Shown here: positions 24,698-45,407 of the stretch, piece after piece | Layout of the letters: each line of letters opens with the position of its first letter | How positions within the stretch are numbered: position 1 is the stretch's first letter | IMG/VR virus record: IMGVR_UViG_3300046777_000741 | Span: 1 to 57,474 of that record | Origin: a virus | Length of the DNA: 57,474 nucleotides | Strand: one strand, 5' to 3' | Position numbers and translations under genes: made by a program | Notes under the pieces: generated by a model | What the model was told of the DNA's origin: nothing | Seen by the model: the letters and a program-made list of their open reading frames with translations, nothing else | The model's database searches: none

Positions 24698-25006
24698 ATG
24701 AAATACGCCAACCTCTGCATGTATTCCGATGTCACCCCCTACGAGATCGTTCGGGTGATCAGCGACAAGACCATCGAGATCCGCGAGATGGACGCCGAAC
24801 TGGCTCCTGGCGAGCGCCCCGAGATCATCCCGGGTGGATTCTCTGGCCACTGCACCAACCAGCGCAGCCTCAAGTACGTCATCACCAGCAACCCCGAGAA
24901 CAAGGTCATCCGGGCCCGTCTGCGTAAGGATGGGGACTACCACAGCCCCTATGGCCGCCACATCCTGAGCGAGGAGCCCCGCAGGTTCTACGACTACAAT
25001 TTCTGA
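24698..25006 (+). CDS. Conserved small phage protein
   Basis: This 102-residue protein contains TPYEIVRVISDKTIEIREMD, PEIIPGGFSGHCTNQ and ARLRKDGDYHSPYG. The combination YE-V-R...T-x-x-IREMD...PGGF-x-GHC-x-NQ is seen in other phage small proteins without known function. GGAG 6 bases before ATG 24698 is better than the upstream GTG. It is the last early gene before the structured 25-kb element. Confidence 0.7.
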   Translation: MKYANLCMYSDVTPYEIVRVISDKTIEIREMDAELAPGERPEIIPGGFSGHCTNQRSLKYVITSNPENKVIRARLRKDGDYHSPYGRHILSEEPRRFYDYNF

Positions 25007-25013
25007 CAGGCAA

Positions 25014-25216
25014 GCCCCCGAGAGGGGGCCAACACGCATGGGGATTGGTGGACGCCTGAAAAGGTCAAGAGGTCGCACCAATTGGACAGGATGGAAGGTC
25101 ATTAGTCCCCAGCCGTGTTGGTGAATGCGTAGGCTGATACGCGCCTCGGCTCAACAAAACCGAGAATTGGCGGCTAAGTACGCAGCGTTAACCGTATGCC
25201 GGAGATCAGCGCCGGC
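25014..25216 (+). ncRNA. Structured noncoding element upstream of the terminase genes
   Basis: The 287-base gap before the small terminase gene has no ORF with a plausible start, but many stems. GCCCCC-gaga-GGGGGC is at 25014-25029. CCAACACG (25029-25036) pairs with CGTGTTGG (25114-25121), inside it TGGGGA (25039-25044) with TCCCCA (25106-25111), and ATTGGTG with CACCAAT (25076-25082). GCGTA/TACGC follows at 25127-25142, then CTCGG/CCGAG at 25145-25164. CGGC/GCCG with GTACG/CGTAT (25171-25201) competes with GCCGG/CCGGC (25198-25216). Possible roles are a packaging-site RNA or DNA, a small RNA, or a switch before terS. Confidence 0.6.
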
Positions 25217-25293
25217 CACCAACAACCTACATTTGCCCCGATCTTGAACAAGGCGGTAAACTCTGGCCATCCAAATGTCTCTGAAAGAACGAG

Positions 25294-25842
25294 ATGGCAG
25301 ACGAAACACCAGATCAGGGTAAACCCGAGGGGTTGGCCGCAAAAAAGAAGACGGGCCGACCTTCTAAATACACCCCCGAGATAGCCCGTCAGATGTGCGA
25401 GATGCTCGCTGATGGCATTCCCCTCAGGGAGATATGCAGGAACGAAGGCTTCCCCGCTTGGAGGACGGTCTACGACTGGATGTATCAGGATGACGCTCGT
25501 GGGGCTGAGGGCGTCGGTCTTTCCGCAGCGATCGCCCGTGCGCGTGAGGTTGGGCAGGACGCCATGGCTGAGAGGGCCTACATGGAGATGTACGAGCCTC
25601 CTGAGCGCATCCTGAGCGAGGGCGGGGGCAAGATCGATCCTGGCTACGTCCAGCTAGTCAAGGCCCGGGCGGAGATCACCCTCAAGCTCCTGGCCAAGTG
25701 GAACCCTAAGCGGTACGGTGACCGCACCACGATCGCTGGTGATGCCGAGAACCCGATCGAGGTCAAGAACGAGGCTCTGGACATCATGTCCGACATCATC
25801 CGGAACCTAGAGCTTCAGCGCCAGAACCGCGCCAATGGCTGA
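25294..25842 (+). CDS. terS: Terminase small subunit
   Basis: This 182-residue protein has a basic N-terminus, then GRPSKYTPEIARQMCEMLAD and GIPLREICRNEGFPAWRTVY, a helix-turn-helix typical of Sf6 gp1-like small terminases. Helical oligomerisation segments follow (QLVKARAEITLKLLAKWNPK, RYGDR). It recognises the packaging site and recruits the large subunit. The stop overlaps the large terminase start by 8 bases. The structured element directly upstream is the obvious candidate for its recognition site. Confidence 0.88.
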   Translation: MADETPDQGKPEGLAAKKKTGRPSKYTPEIARQMCEMLADGIPLREICRNEGFPAWRTVYDWMYQDDARGAEGVGLSAAIARAREVGQDAMAERAYMEMYEPPERILSEGGGKIDPGYVQLVKARAEITLKLLAKWNPKRYGDRTTIAGDAENPIEVKNEALDIMSDIIRNLELQRQNRANG

Positions 25843-27277
25843 CATACTGGAGACCCTGCGCTCCCCGCTGGTGGCGGAGAACCTGCCCAAGCTGCCGCCC
25901 ACCCACCAGATGGCCTTCGCCAAACGGGCAGCATGGCTGGCGCAGGCCCACGATCACCAGATCCTGCCCCACGGGGACTGGTGGTCAATCTGGCTGCTGC
26001 TGGCAGGCCGCGGCGCTGGAAAGACCCGCACCGCCGCGGAACAGATCTGGTGGTGGGCGTGGGAGTTCCCCGCCACCCGTTGGCTGGTCTCGGCCCCCAC
26101 CTCCTCCGATGTCCGCTCCACCTGCTTCGAGGGTGACTCGGGGCTCATGTCCGTCATCCCGCCGATCCTGATCGAGGATTACAACAAAGCATTACATGAG
26201 TTGAAGCTGGTCAATGGGTCGCTGATCAAGGGCATCCCGGCCTCGGAGCCCGAGCGTTTCCGGGGGCCTCAGTTTCACGGGGGCTGGTGCGATGAGCTTG
26301 CGGCATGGGAGTACCTGCAAGAGGCCTGGGATCAGATGCAGTTCGGCATGCGCCTGAAGATCGCTGGTGACCCCGCCTTCAAGACCCGCCTGATCTGCAC
26401 TACCACCCCGAAGCCCAAGGATCTGATCGTCGAGCTTGTGGGCCGGGAGGGTGACGATGTCCACCTGACCACCGCCTCGACCTACTCGAACATCGCCAAC
26501 CTGTCGGACAACTTCCGCAAGCAGATTCTTCAGTACGAAGGTACTAAGCTGGGTCGGCAGGAGATCTACGCCGAGATCCTCGACCCGGAGGATGCCGGTA
26601 TCGTCAAGCGATCGTGGTTCAAGCTCTGGCCTGCGGACAAGCCCCTGCCTAAGCTGGAGTACATCGTCCAGTCCTATGACTGTGCGTTCACCGACAAGGC
26701 CAACAACGACCCGACCGCCTCGATCACGTTCGGGGTGTTCAAGCCCATGGACGGGCCGATGTCCGTGCTGGTGATCGATGCGTGGCAGGACAGGCTCCAG
26801 TACCCCGACCTCAAGCCCAAGGTGCTGGAGGAGTACGAGGTTATCTACGGGGATGGTAAGGACGCTCGCCGGGTGGATCTGGTGCTGGTCGAGGAGAAGG
26901 CCGCTGGCATCTCCCTGATCCAAGACCTCCAGCGAGCCCATGTGTTCGTGCGTGGCTACAACCCAGGCAGGGCCGACAAGATGCAGCGCCTGTCGATCAT
27001 CGCCAACATCATCCGGGCAGGCAGGGTCTGGATACCCGAGTCCAGTGTCAACAAGGGCTATGTCCGGGACTGGGCCGAGGGGATGGTCAGCCAGATCTGC
27101 GCCTTCCCCGATACGACCCACGACGACTTCTGTGACGCCATGAGTCAGGCCCTGCGCTATCTGCGGGACGCTGGGTGGCTCAACATCGATCCTCCCCCGC
27201 CGGAGGCATACGACGAGGAAGATGTGATTGACGCCGGCTGGGAGTTCCGGCGCAGGGAGAACCCCTATGCCGTTTGA
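25835..27277 (+). CDS. terL: Terminase large subunit
   Basis: This 480-residue packaging motor has Walker A GRGAGKT at 58-64 and a Walker-B-like GGWCDE with D153 and E154. The C-terminal RNase H-type nuclease domain has YDCAFT (D282), LVLVEEKAAG (E353/E354) and HDDFCDAM (D430, D431, D434). It cuts concatemers and pumps DNA into the prohead. Length is normal for the Terminase_6-type family. It starts inside the end of terS and overlaps the next small gene by 11 bases. Confidence 0.95.
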   Translation: MADILETLRSPLVAENLPKLPPTHQMAFAKRAAWLAQAHDHQILPHGDWWSIWLLLAGRGAGKTRTAAEQIWWWAWEFPATRWLVSAPTSSDVRSTCFEGDSGLMSVIPPILIEDYNKALHELKLVNGSLIKGIPASEPERFRGPQFHGGWCDELAAWEYLQEAWDQMQFGMRLKIAGDPAFKTRLICTTTPKPKDLIVELVGREGDDVHLTTASTYSNIANLSDNFRKQILQYEGTKLGRQEIYAEILDPEDAGIVKRSWFKLWPADKPLPKLEYIVQSYDCAFTDKANNDPTASITFGVFKPMDGPMSVLVIDAWQDRLQYPDLKPKVLEEYEVIYGDGKDARRVDLVLVEEKAAGISLIQDLQRAHVFVRGYNPGRADKMQRLSIIANIIRAGRVWIPESSVNKGYVRDWAEGMVSQICAFPDTTHDDFCDAMSQALRYLRDAGWLNIDPPPPEAYDEEDVIDAGWEFRRRENPYAV

Positions 27278-28488: not shown

Positions 28489-31485
28489 ATGCCCAAAAAG
28501 ACCGGCAAGCTGGCAGACGCTCTGTTCGGCCAACCCGAAGAAAAAGCTGCCTTCGGCGTCTTTCCCCAGATGAAGCCCCGCCGGTCTCAGCAAGACCCTG
28601 AGGCTGCCAAGAACTTCCCCGTTGACGTTGCCCGAGGATTCGCCTCTGGTGTTCTGGGAGCCCCCGGTGACATCGAGTCCCTGATCCGGCTGCTGCCCGG
28701 GCTGGATGAGAAGACCGTCCTGCCGACCAGCGAGGAAATCGAGAAGCGCATTCCCCTGCGGTCTGACACCCCCGTGAGCCGTGCGGCCACTGGAATGGGC
28801 CAACTGGGTGGCGGCTTCTACATGGGCCCGGGCTCCCCGCTTCGCCTTGCTGCTGGCCTGCCTGGGGCTGTTGTAAGCGCCAGCAAGGACTTTGCAATGG
28901 CGGCTGGATCGTCCGGCCCCCGCATCTTTGTTGGCCCGAAGGCCAAGACATGGGATCAGGCTGCTGCCGATGCCGCTGCTCGACTGGAGAAGCAAGGCAT
29001 TGATCCCGTCGAGATCTGGAAGCAGACGGGCACCTTCCGTGGGGTTGACGGCATCCTGCGCCAAGAGATCGACGATCGCGCCGCCTTGTTCCTTACGCCC
29101 GATGAGCGCAAGGAGATGGCCGCTGTGATTAAGGGCGGCATCGATGTCCTGAAGGAAAAAATCAAGACCACCCCGCAGAAGGATCTGTTCCCGAAAGCTC
29201 TGACCGAGGCCAAGAAGGATGTGCGCGAGAAGATCGCCACCGCCAAGGAAGAGCTTGCTGATTACAAGAAAGACCCAAGCCTGACCGAGGCAAAGGCGTA
29301 TACGGTCTTTCACCACCCGGAGCTTTACAAGGCATATCCAGAGCTTGCAAAAATTCCGGTCGAGACTGGCGGCTATGGCGGGGAAGGAACCCGCGGCAGC
29401 TTGAGCATTTTCGAGAAGAGTGACAAAAGCCCCGGCTCGATGTCGATGGACATTTATCAATCCGGCTTGCAGCGCAACCCGACCTCGACGACTCTGCACG
29501 AGATGCAGCATGCCGTGCAGACGCTGGAGGGCATGAGCCCCGGCGGCAATCAGGCTATGGCCTTCAAAGATCCTCGTGCGTTCGACATCCTTCAGCGCCT
29601 ACGCTATGAGATTCAGCAGCCTCCGAGCTTTGCTGAGTTTCAAAAGGCAAACCGCTACCCGACCGAGGATGAGGCCAAGAAGGCTTACTCTGAGTTCGTC
29701 AACAGCTACAACGTGCCGATCACTCCGGCGATAGAGCGCGACCTTCAGGAAAACGCCGCTCGGGAATACTACAGGCGACTTGCCGGTGAGGCTGAGGCTC
29801 GTGCGGTGCAAGACCGCCAGATGATGACGCCCGAGCAGCGCCGAGATACTCCGCCCGCCGCCAGCTATGACGTTCCGCAGGAGGATCTGCTGACCAAGCC
29901 CCCAAAACAGTACAAGAAGGGCGGCAAGGTTCAGATCTCGGACAACCCCGACACGATGCGAGCCGAGCTTGCCCAGATCAAGCCCACCGAGGTTCGCAGC
30001 AAGCCTGCCCTGGGCGCTGCCAAGGCCTTGCAAAAGGCGCATGAGTTCGTCTCCAAGCCCTTTGGCTACCCCAACCCTCCTGCCGCAATGATCAGCGAGT
30101 TCCTCGGTGTTCCCGCTATTGCCCGGACGCTGGAGCGCGTTGGTTATGGCCAGCCGATCACCAACATCGGCAAGGCCAACGTCCCGCTGCTGCCTGAAGA
30201 CACCTCAGAGACAATCCTGTCCGTGGCTCCATTGGCCTCTGTGACCAAAGGCCTTCCAGTGGGCGCCGCAATTAAAAAATCAGAAAAGGTTCCCGCGGTT
30301 CCGCTTGACATTCCTCGCGTCCGACCGACCAAGCAGGACATTCTGGAGGCCGCCGAGCGAGTGGGGCGCCAGCAAGCCGGAGAGCATGTCAGAAGTCCGC
30401 TGTTGAACAAAACCGAGAACCTTGCTGGCCGTTCAATGGCGGAGTCCAAGCGTGTTCAGGCGCTCAAGTACGAGTTGGAGCCGACAAAAGACATCCCGAA
30501 TCTAGGCGTTTATGAGCCCAAGATCGGCGAGGTAAACATCGCCCTTCCCGGAGATCAGACGGTTGCCGATGTCATCCTGAAGAGCGTTGATGACATTCCT
30601 GTGGGATCTGTCCAAGAGGGCGGCGCCAATTTTGGTCTTGGCAAGCTGGAGCTTCCTGAGGAGAAGCGGGCGTTCTGGGCGTCTAACTTTGGCCCGGCGC
30701 AGATATTCCAGAACAAAGTCACCGAAATCGCAAGGAAGTTTAATACCGATCTTGTCACTGCGTATCACCTTGCCATGGGCACTGATGCCAATAACTTTGC
30801 CCAGCATTTTGCTGACGCAAACCTTCGCGCCATCGACTACTCCAAGATGACAAAAGGTCAGATGGAGGCATTTGATCAAGCCATTGCATATGGGTACATC
30901 AAGAAGAACCCAAAGACCGGCGAGTATGTTCATACCTCATTCCCTGAGTGGCCCGGTATTGCAGATCCTGATGGCGCTTATCTGGCGATGAAGGAAAATC
31001 CAGAGCTTCGAAAGTGGTTCAACAACCGCATGAAGACGCCAAAGCTCACAGAGGCTACCAACATGCCTGATGGCCGCTCGATTGAATGGGCGATCACCGA
31101 GCCCGAGATTCGGAACATGGAGATCAACATGACCGGTTTGTCGGCTGGTCGCATGAAGCCGGGCGCGGAGCTTATCCCCGAGTCTGCCCACCAGACCTAT
31201 AGCCACGATATTCCGGGCACCGCACTGGGCCGTGCGCCAGAGCTTGCGCCTTTCTCGATTAGTTTTCCGGATGTCACAGAATTTGTCCGCCAGAAGTACC
31301 GCCCGCAGGACTTTACTGGCACGATTCAGAAAGTCTTCCCACATCAAGTGGTCGATGAGGCTTATCTGGAAGATCTGGCGACCTACTACAACCAGCTTCG
31401 CAAGGTGCGTGGATTTGCTGAAGGCGGAGCGGTTGATGGTGACATCACCGGTGACGACCTGACCATCGAGGAGCGCCCGCTGTGA
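28489..31485 (+). CDS. Large polyvalent-type protein with HExxH motif
   Basis: This 998-residue protein has a phage-specific N-terminus (KKTGKLADALFGQPEEKAAF). STTLHEMQHAVQTLEG follows, with HEMQH at 337-341, a zinc metalloprotease-like motif found in polyvalent-protein domains of phages and conjugative elements. It also carries YKKGGKVQISDNPDTMRAEL (around 478-495) and, near the end, FAEGGAVDGDITGDDL. ATG 28489 follows TTGAGG. Polyvalent proteins are thought to enter the host with DNA and counter defences or modify targets. That role is inferred here; a structural role is possible given its place before the portal. Confidence 0.55.
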   Translation: MPKKTGKLADALFGQPEEKAAFGVFPQMKPRRSQQDPEAAKNFPVDVARGFASGVLGAPGDIESLIRLLPGLDEKTVLPTSEEIEKRIPLRSDTPVSRAATGMGQLGGGFYMGPGSPLRLAAGLPGAVVSASKDFAMAAGSSGPRIFVGPKAKTWDQAAADAAARLEKQGIDPVEIWKQTGTFRGVDGILRQEIDDRAALFLTPDERKEMAAVIKGGIDVLKEKIKTTPQKDLFPKALTEAKKDVREKIATAKEELADYKKDPSLTEAKAYTVFHHPELYKAYPELAKIPVETGGYGGEGTRGSLSIFEKSDKSPGSMSMDIYQSGLQRNPTSTTLHEMQHAVQTLEGMSPGGNQAMAFKDPRAFDILQRLRYEIQQPPSFAEFQKANRYPTEDEAKKAYSEFVNSYNVPITPAIERDLQENAAREYYRRLAGEAEARAVQDRQMMTPEQRRDTPPAASYDVPQEDLLTKPPKQYKKGGKVQISDNPDTMRAELAQIKPTEVRSKPALGAAKALQKAHEFVSKPFGYPNPPAAMISEFLGVPAIARTLERVGYGQPITNIGKANVPLLPEDTSETILSVAPLASVTKGLPVGAAIKKSEKVPAVPLDIPRVRPTKQDILEAAERVGRQQAGEHVRSPLLNKTENLAGRSMAESKRVQALKYELEPTKDIPNLGVYEPKIGEVNIALPGDQTVADVILKSVDDIPVGSVQEGGANFGLGKLELPEEKRAFWASNFGPAQIFQNKVTEIARKFNTDLVTAYHLAMGTDANNFAQHFADANLRAIDYSKMTKGQMEAFDQAIAYGYIKKNPKTGEYVHTSFPEWPGIADPDGAYLAMKENPELRKWFNNRMKTPKLTEATNMPDGRSIEWAITEPEIRNMEINMTGLSAGRMKPGAELIPESAHQTYSHDIPGTALGRAPELAPFSISFPDVTEFVRQKYRPQDFTGTIQKVFPHQVVDEAYLEDLATYYNQLRKVRGFAEGGAVDGDITGDDLTIEERPL

Positions 31486-45066: not shown

Positions 45067-45407
45067 TGGGGATGTTTCTGGACACCATCGGCAACCAGTC
45101 TCTGGCCATTTTCATCTGTGATCGCTGCCGCATGAAGCGGGCGATGGATGAGCAGATGTCCGACCCCAATTTCCCGGGGTTGAAGGTATGCCAGCAGGGC
45201 TGCGCCGACCAGATAGATCCCTACCGGCTGCCCGCTCGTAAAACCGAGCGCATCAACCTGCGTTTTCCCCGTCCGGATGTCTCCGTGGCCGTAGACCCGA
45301 ACAACCTTGTGACGGACAATCAGGGCGACTACATCGTCTCCACCGAGGGCAATACCCAAGATCCGGAGAACAACGGCAACCTTGACGGAATTTCGGTGAC
45401 ACCATAA
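45066..45407 (+). CDS. Zinc-ribbon-like late protein
   Basis: This 113-residue protein reads MGMFLDTIGNQSLAIFICDR with C18-x-x-C21 (CDRC), then LKVCQQGCADQIDPYRLPAR with two more cysteines, giving a likely zinc site. The C-terminus carries NLRFPRPDVSVAVD. This family normally follows the adaptor gene directly in related phages, so the endonuclease gene has split the pair. Likely a small tail or connector component. Confidence 0.68.
   Translation: MGMFLDTIGNQSLAIFICDRCRMKRAMDEQMSDPNFPGLKVCQQGCADQIDPYRLPARKTERINLRFPRPDVSVAVDPNNLVTDNQGDYIVSTEGNTQDPENNGNLDGISVTP

Follow-up and report, generated by a model that had tools for sequence, protein, structure and literature searches.

A candidate family of small phage RNAs with a predicted tRNA-like scaffold and a hypervariable insert in place of the anticodon arm

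The window analysed here (i.e. the whole 57,474-nucleotide stretch of IMG/VR virus record IMGVR_UViG_3300046777_000741) is noncoding from the end of an ORF at 25006 to the start of terS at 25294. This downstream gene (25294–25842, + strand) encodes an Sf6-like small terminase (PF20901, E 8.8e-23), lies outside the RNA described below and is followed by terL (25835–27277, + strand; PF03237/PF17289), which provides context and served to find relatives sharing the slot. An earlier note on this DNA had proposed a multi-stem noncoding element at 25014–25216. All of its stems (i.e. an 8-bp, a 6-bp and a 7-bp stem and a GAGA hairpin) were present at the positions it gave, and its reading that no ORF fits was borne out, as only mechanical ORFs overlap the region and none is convincing. 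The 3' half of the proposed interval corresponds to the conserved core of an RNA, whilst its end omits the seven bases of the 3' strand of helix P1. The 5' stems (i.e. the GAGA hairpin and a hairpin within loop V1) are present but belong to a variable part outside the conserved core.

The core RNA spans 25117–25223 and comprises the 7-bp helix P1, hairpin P2, insert V2 and hairpin P3, all features of the element being given for the + strand. The 5' strand of P1 (GTTGGTG, 25117–25123), identified from covariation and fold, would be the equivalent of one strand of an acceptor stem. It is joined to P2 by an AAT linker (25124–25126) that is the equivalent of tRNA positions 8-9 and is nearly invariant, including in the 3'-anchored set of relatives described below. 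P2 (GCGTA-GGCTGA-TACGC, 25127–25142), the putative D-arm equivalent, has a loop that pairs with the loop of P3 and is followed by V2 (25143–25197), a 55-nt hypervariable insert that replaces the anticodon arm and is swapped as a cassette among relatives. P3 (GCCGG-AGATCAGCG-CCGGC, 25198–25216), the putative T-arm equivalent, is stacked on P1 with a 0-nt linker, and TCAGC in its loop (25206–25210) is predicted to form a kissing helix with GCTGA of the P2 loop (25133–25137). The 3' strand of P1 (CACCAAC, 25217–25223), beyond the coordinates originally proposed, is followed by A-ACC.

Upstream of the core, helix P0 is formed by a 5' strand (CCAACACG..TGGGGA, 25029–25044) and a 3' strand (TCCCCA..CGTGTTGG, 25106–25121), which in the window make a single helix from the 8-bp stem (25029–25036 with 25114–25121) and the 6-bp stem (25039–25044 with 25106–25111). 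Its variable loop, V1 (25045–25105), contains in the window the 7-bp hairpin (25044–25050 with 25076–25082). The CCAAC of the P0 5' strand duplicates part of the P1 3' strand, and the final 5 bases of the P0 3' strand are also the start of P1. The GCCCCC-GAGA-GGGGGC hairpin (25014–25029) lies directly after the upstream ORF, and a counterpart was not identified in most relatives; it is part of the variable 5' side and may lie outside the conserved RNA. Folding of the core alone produced exactly P1, P2 and P3. With the upstream part included, the P1 strand paired with 25029–25036 instead, indicating that the 8-bp stem and P1 are alternatives. Folding energies were not used as evidence because they were weak and were stronger on the wrong strand (z-scores of -1.8 for 25014–25216 on the + strand, -3.6 for its reverse complement and -1.5 for the core). 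The case for structure above chance is drawn from comparative evidence, i.e. a covariance model and covariation.

On the evidence of sequence comparisons, the window element is one member of a family of small phage RNAs that is widespread and had not been catalogued before. With BLAST and pattern scans, this RNA was located in no fewer than 185 distinct elements of phages and prophages. Of the 79 and 158 records obtained when phage genomes were searched twice by blastn, most have in common only a short block at P2 and another at P3/P1, the part between them being unalignable. Carriers include HK620, HK633, P7, mEp460, phiEt88 and Ackermannviridae (Taipeivirus), as well as the N4-like Pseudomonas phages ZC03/ZC08 and Aeromonas phage ST4. 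A pattern for the 5' block matched at least 120 IMG/VR stretches, and a pattern for the 3' block only matched at least 120 further stretches, the counts from IMG/VR scans being lower bounds obtained from non-random samples. The 5' block was present in 121 of the 131 distinct 3'-anchored elements among the matches listed, and in bacteria its pattern matched 80 contigs, mostly from Gamma- and Betaproteobacteria. The HK620 element was matched, at least partly, in 1049 of 5426 complete E. coli genomes (about a fifth), with no annotated feature at that place among the matches listed.

A covariance model was trained on 34 elements, one of them from the window, which scored 74.3 bits (E 3.7e-17) as a member of that training set. 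This model was positive in 7 of 296 genomes of one order (2 known beforehand) and in 3 of 190 genomes in the class of a Bradyrhizobium genome (1 known beforehand), a sporadic occurrence as expected of an accessory gene. A weak second match at 45193–45273 (- strand) of the window (15.6 bits, E 0.063) is probably due to chance. The earlier note had recognised no known RNA family, and a search of the window and its relatives with the 4227 models of Rfam 15 likewise found nothing at the gathering threshold over the element. The best sub-threshold match, to the E. coli sRNA rydB, covered 18 nt of the P3 hairpin (25198–25215; 17/18 identical, E 0.18) and was taken as chance; a sub-threshold similarity to MS2 was also set aside. 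No description of this RNA was found in a search of the open-access literature. As it has no Rfam entry and none of the examined records annotates it, the element escapes current pipelines.

Two observations on individual loci were made in the course of these searches. In phage P7 (L007, 2395–2545), the element lies between tRNA genes and ban and is common to P7 and D6; no other P1-like record matched at the search sensitivity used, which is a possible P1/P7 difference. Tandem copies were observed in L052 (3145–3250 and 3572–3690), L192 and L284, and a tRNA-like RNA with the same frame adjoins an element in L284 and L401.

Covariation was observed for P1, P2, P3 and the P2-P3 loop-loop helix. 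In the 34-sequence alignment, 98.7% of cells were paired as compared to 91.5% in shuffled alignments, whilst double-changed cells numbered 46 as compared to 10.3 and the covariation score was 0.237 as compared to 0.097. None of 500 shuffles reached the observed value on any of five measures, and sliding the partners destroyed the signal. For 117 distinct elements among the matches listed, P1 positions 4-7 were paired in 95–98% of cases as compared to 50–91% with the partners swapped. The covariation of P2 recurred in the independently anchored (i.e. 3'-block) set, which contained fully compensated variants of this helix (e.g. GCCCG/CGGGC and GCACA/TGTGC). The P2 loop GCTGA and the P3 loop TCAGC (i.e. 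GCUGA and UCAGC) form a fourth helix with 95 G-C, 11 G-U and 4 A-U combinations, the changes from G-C to A-U and G-U occurring in the correct partners; the loops are near-invariant across phages of many genera. Compensatory changes, whose lack in homologous phages had been named in the earlier note as counting against its proposal, were thus abundant in the stems. By our own tally for the 117-element set, G-U cells exceeded A-C cells by 59 to 9, indicating that the element acts as an RNA and is transcribed from the + strand. P0 was found directly 5' of P1 in 63% of 181 elements as compared to 8% of swapped controls, and extended into the P1 strand in 60 of 115 P0-bearing elements, in both cases among the matches listed. 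Where P0 enters the P1 strand, its 5' strand copies the 3' strand of P1, so that the P0 and P1 folds would be mutually exclusive.

The predicted topology resembles that of a tRNA, with a 7-bp P1, a 3-nt linker to P2, a 5-bp P3 that directly abuts the P1 3' strand and loops that touch; the element is also found in tRNA arrays. Both the acceptor- and T-arm-like helices covary. The contact equivalent to that between D-loop and T-loop covaries as well, yet consists of 4-5 Watson-Crick pairs and not of the tRNA consensus. The element differs further from tRNA (RF00005) in having neither a TTCRA T-loop nor a D-loop consensus, and the anticodon arm with its 7-nt loop is absent, its position being occupied by V2, which has no common fold. 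Among the matches listed, the discriminator was A in 100 of 185 elements and CCA was encoded at its tRNA place in 13 of 185. At its gathering score (29 bits), RF00005 gave no match at the element, in the window or at the element-bearing loci, and ARAGORN detected no tRNA anywhere in the window. Given the absence of an RF00005 match, of an anticodon arm and of a match to any other Rfam family, the element would represent a new RNA class.

Kinship of the element with phage tRNA genes is nonetheless apparent from sequence, most strongly from what fills the same slot in the window's own relatives. The site before terS was compared for phages with a TerL 82–86% identical to that of the window. It holds the element in L315, L316, L319, L321, L323 and L324, an Rfam-scored tRNA with the acceptor stem GTTGGTG in L311 (43.2 bits) and L325 (35.4 bits) and a T-arm-bearing relative in L307, and is empty in L308–L310; in the related phage ctpbd312 (MW202545.1), only 56 nt separate the preceding gene from terS. 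The same-slot relatives share the kind of P0 (CAACACGCATGGG...CAGCCGTG) and a P1 of GTTGGTG/CACCAAC or GATGGTG/CACCATC. A scan for the frame combined with a canonical D-arm pattern yielded at least 41 stretches (28 distinct), most of the RNAs being 70–127 nt in length. Rfam takes most of those tested as tRNA (31–49 bits) and ARAGORN accepts 2 of the 28; the D-arm and T-arm are kept and a normal anticodon arm is mostly absent. Chimeras with a canonical tRNA D-arm on the 5' side and the P3 of the element on the 3' side were found at L399:2089–2166, L403:12317–12394 and L418:5762–5839 and scored 27 bits with the element model. Separately, the same-slot tRNA-like RNAs of L396, L405, L412 and L415 (70 nt) were near-identical save for a 6-nt loop at the anticodon place (CTTTGT, CTGTGT, CTGGGT and CTGCGT, respectively), as if it were mainly the loop that changes.

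Variation within the family appears to be modular. V2 measures ~31–178 nt and is unalignable across the family. Near-identical V2 sequences occurred in different surroundings in 28 pairs of elements, and different V2 sequences in near-identical surroundings in 14 pairs; between L164 and L098, for example, V1 is 100% and the downstream sequence 98% identical with only 33% identity in V2. This cassette exchange suggests that V2 sets the specificity of the RNA and may be a domain under diversifying selection. The fold stability of V2 was nothing unusual as compared to shuffles (mean z of -0.5), leaving V2 as an independently stable fold unsupported and a 'structured decoy' without direct support.

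We consider it probable that the element is a trans-acting accessory phage RNA on a tRNA-shaped scaffold. P1 would serve as the acceptor stem, P2 as the D-arm and P3 as the T-arm, with the kissing P2 and P3 loops forming the elbow and the hypervariable V2 standing in place of the anticodon arm. The RNA would be produced from its own short gene, with a promoter at P1 and a terminator ~15 nt past P1, or within longer transcripts (i.e. tRNA arrays, a late leader or a CI-containing transcript). The 5' hairpin P0 could keep the acceptor strand occupied while the 3' strand is still being made and, as P0 can sequester this strand, folding or processing may be timed. The mature RNA, presumably acting in trans and mimicking tRNA in the cell, may be recognised as tRNA-like by host factors. 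A role of phage tRNAs against tRNA-targeting defences has been proposed or shown (PMC10264068, PMC11555353), and the most natural guess is therefore that the RNA interferes either with systems of this kind or with tRNA enzymes of the host. We put forward only tentatively that the RNA is a decoy or inhibitor that disturbs either host machinery directed at tRNA or anti-phage defences that target tRNA. Counting against the reading as a whole are the rarity of an encoded CCA, the small share of elements close to a tRNA with none in the window, and the unremarkable folding stability of V2. A small RNA had been among the options of the earlier note; that option is plausible, and the note was right to see a multi-stem noncoding RNA here.

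The main rival is a small RNA that acts by base-pairing, in which the tRNA-like core would be a stability scaffold (i.e. a 'tRNA scaffold') and V2 and/or V1 would be antisense guides to host, phage or rival-phage transcripts. A guide function would fit with the hypervariability of V2 and its exchange as a cassette, stand-alone genes with promoter and terminator exist, and pairing is the mode of other prophage sRNAs (PMC13192938). However, V2 was not complementary in excess to the phage DNA around it (i.e. the phage's own flanks; mean excess of 0.04 ± 0.07 nt), cis-antisense action by V2 was rejected on this result, and we judge the base-pairing explanation to be unlikely, albeit the foremost of the alternatives. 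Two isolated sequence recurrences were observed: a 14-nt identity at 30406 of the window falls on the sense strand and appears fortuitous, and a 25-nt stretch in V1 of L164 recurs antisense elsewhere in the same prophage region.

The neighbours of the element include tRNAs, Q, CI, lysis and tail genes and terminase. Among the matches listed, nearby tRNAs were on the strand of the element in 52 of 55 cases and on the opposite strand in 3, a detectable tRNA being within 1 kb of only 29 of 185 elements. The upstream neighbours comprised members of a CI-like repressor family (15/120) and a Q-like antiterminator family (11/120), and the downstream neighbours endolysins (9/142) together with terminases and N-like proteins, again among the matches listed. 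CI-adjacent and pR' positions are sites of lambdoid accessory genes expressed in lysogens. Some copies carry putative signals for stand-alone transcription. Among the matches listed, a -10 hexamer was present at one fixed position in 5 of 185 elements (2.7%) as compared to a background of 0.13%, each of the five placing the predicted transcription start within ~1 base of P1, and an intrinsic terminator was found within 100 nt on the 3' side, often at ~15 nt, in 17% as compared to 1–7% of controls.

These surroundings bear on a second alternative, i.e. that the element belongs to the leaders of early or late operons and acts in cis, either by antitermination in the manner of put or by regulating the gene that follows (terS in the window); V1 and V2 would then be expansions of no relevance. 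The HK620 element lies between pR'/qut and the terminator tQ, Q-like genes upstream and lysis genes downstream recur in the counts above, a boxA-like GCTCTTTAACAAT precedes some copies, and the P0/P1 overlap is also in keeping with such a role. As the window copy has no terminator directly 3' and continues into terS, a cis role may apply there. Against this explanation, the genes beside the element are of too many kinds (tRNAs, CI, tail genes and others), several copies stop at their own terminator, and neither same-slot replacement by tRNA-like RNAs nor V2 cassette exchange is expected of an antiterminator. A cis role in late leaders thus ranks next after base-pairing by V2 and is improbable for the family. 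In several enterobacterial prophages (L030, L177, L187 and L206), the boxA-like GCTCTTTAACA(AT) was observed ~60 nt before P1.

Our preferred reading of an accessory RNA on a tRNA-shaped scaffold also has to be set against one in which the elements are decaying phage tRNA genes that have lost the anticodon arm and are now drifting. The elements are clearly akin to the tRNA-like RNAs found in the same slot, and tRNA fragments occur inside V1 and V2; V1 differs among elements, and T-arm hairpins within it were ~16-fold commoner than across the loci as a whole. A promoter at P1 argues against decay, and strong covariation and near-invariant loops need purifying selection, which largely refutes this reading and makes it very improbable. 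Pieces of tRNA (i.e. T-arms) were observed in V1 of L013, L014, L035, L041, L048, L064, L073, L126, L140 and L212, the V2 of L103 contains a D-arm and a T-arm, and in L135 a whole tRNA-Gly forms V1, with its acceptor stem part of P0. The least credible explanation is a DNA-packaging element (i.e. a pac/cos-associated structure or a pRNA analogue), as the earlier note had suggested from the position before terS that the window shares with some relatives: the loops might conceivably pair between molecules, as they do in phi29 pRNA, but the same RNA occurs in tRNA arrays, behind CI-like repressors and between Q and lysis genes, such varied neighbours making a packaging role unlikely, is near terminase only sometimes and often far from it with no obligate linkage, and is missing from close relatives with a homologous terminase whose slot is empty or tRNA-like, whilst the wobble pairs indicate RNA and not DNA.

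Several known systems resemble the element in part. The bacterial Y RNA YrlA has canonical D/T-arm motifs, a Ro-binding stem and an rsr gene nearby, and has in common with the element a tRNA-like module without decoding function within a noncoding RNA; unlike for YrlA, no rsr-like gene family was enriched beside the elements in a survey of neighbour families. The put antiterminator of HK022 is a cis RNA with paired hairpins in lambdoid operons, but consists of two simple hairpins, acts in early operons and has no hypervariable domain. In the purine-riboswitch fold, P1 closes P2 and P3 with kissing loops; the element differs in having neither the conserved junction core nor the gene context, and in its hypervariable J2/3. 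The pRNA of phi29 is likewise a phage RNA with loop-loop pairing, and the window element precedes a terminase, but pRNA is found in unrelated phages, has another secondary structure and, unlike it, the element is not tied to terminase. GOLLD and ROOL are large structured phage RNAs, often near tRNAs, that differ in being several hundred nt in length and homo-oligomeric, and the element had no Rfam match to them. These ornate RNAs have been described by cryo-EM (PMC12286853). HDV-like theta ribozymes are also structured RNAs beside phage tRNA genes (PMC10879173), but have a nested double pseudoknot and self-cleave, whereas the element is composed of one stem and two kissing hairpins; comparison with the Rfam ribozyme models gave no match, and an HDV-like fold was not found.

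Novelty is meant here for the putative RNA class and not for a demonstrated mechanism, the theme of tRNA-like RNAs being known. As a possible overall interpretation, advanced with caution, these elements may constitute a new class of viral RNA genes in which the anticodon arm has given way to an exchangeable specificity domain, and which would supply phages and prophages of Gram-negative bacteria, partly from positions expressed in lysogeny, with diversified inhibitors or decoys against tRNA-directed defences or host tRNA machinery. Roughly one in five complete E. coli genomes carries the RNA, as do several well-known coliphages, and the function of phage tRNA genes is debated. Through its kinship with tRNA and its exchangeable domain, the family opens to test the old question of whether tRNA-shaped RNAs serve phages in roles outside translation. 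Should V2 set specificity, the element would be a modular effector made of RNA that genome sequences reveal directly and, if the decoy or inhibitor reading is true, the class would be an RNA counterpart of protein anti-defence genes.
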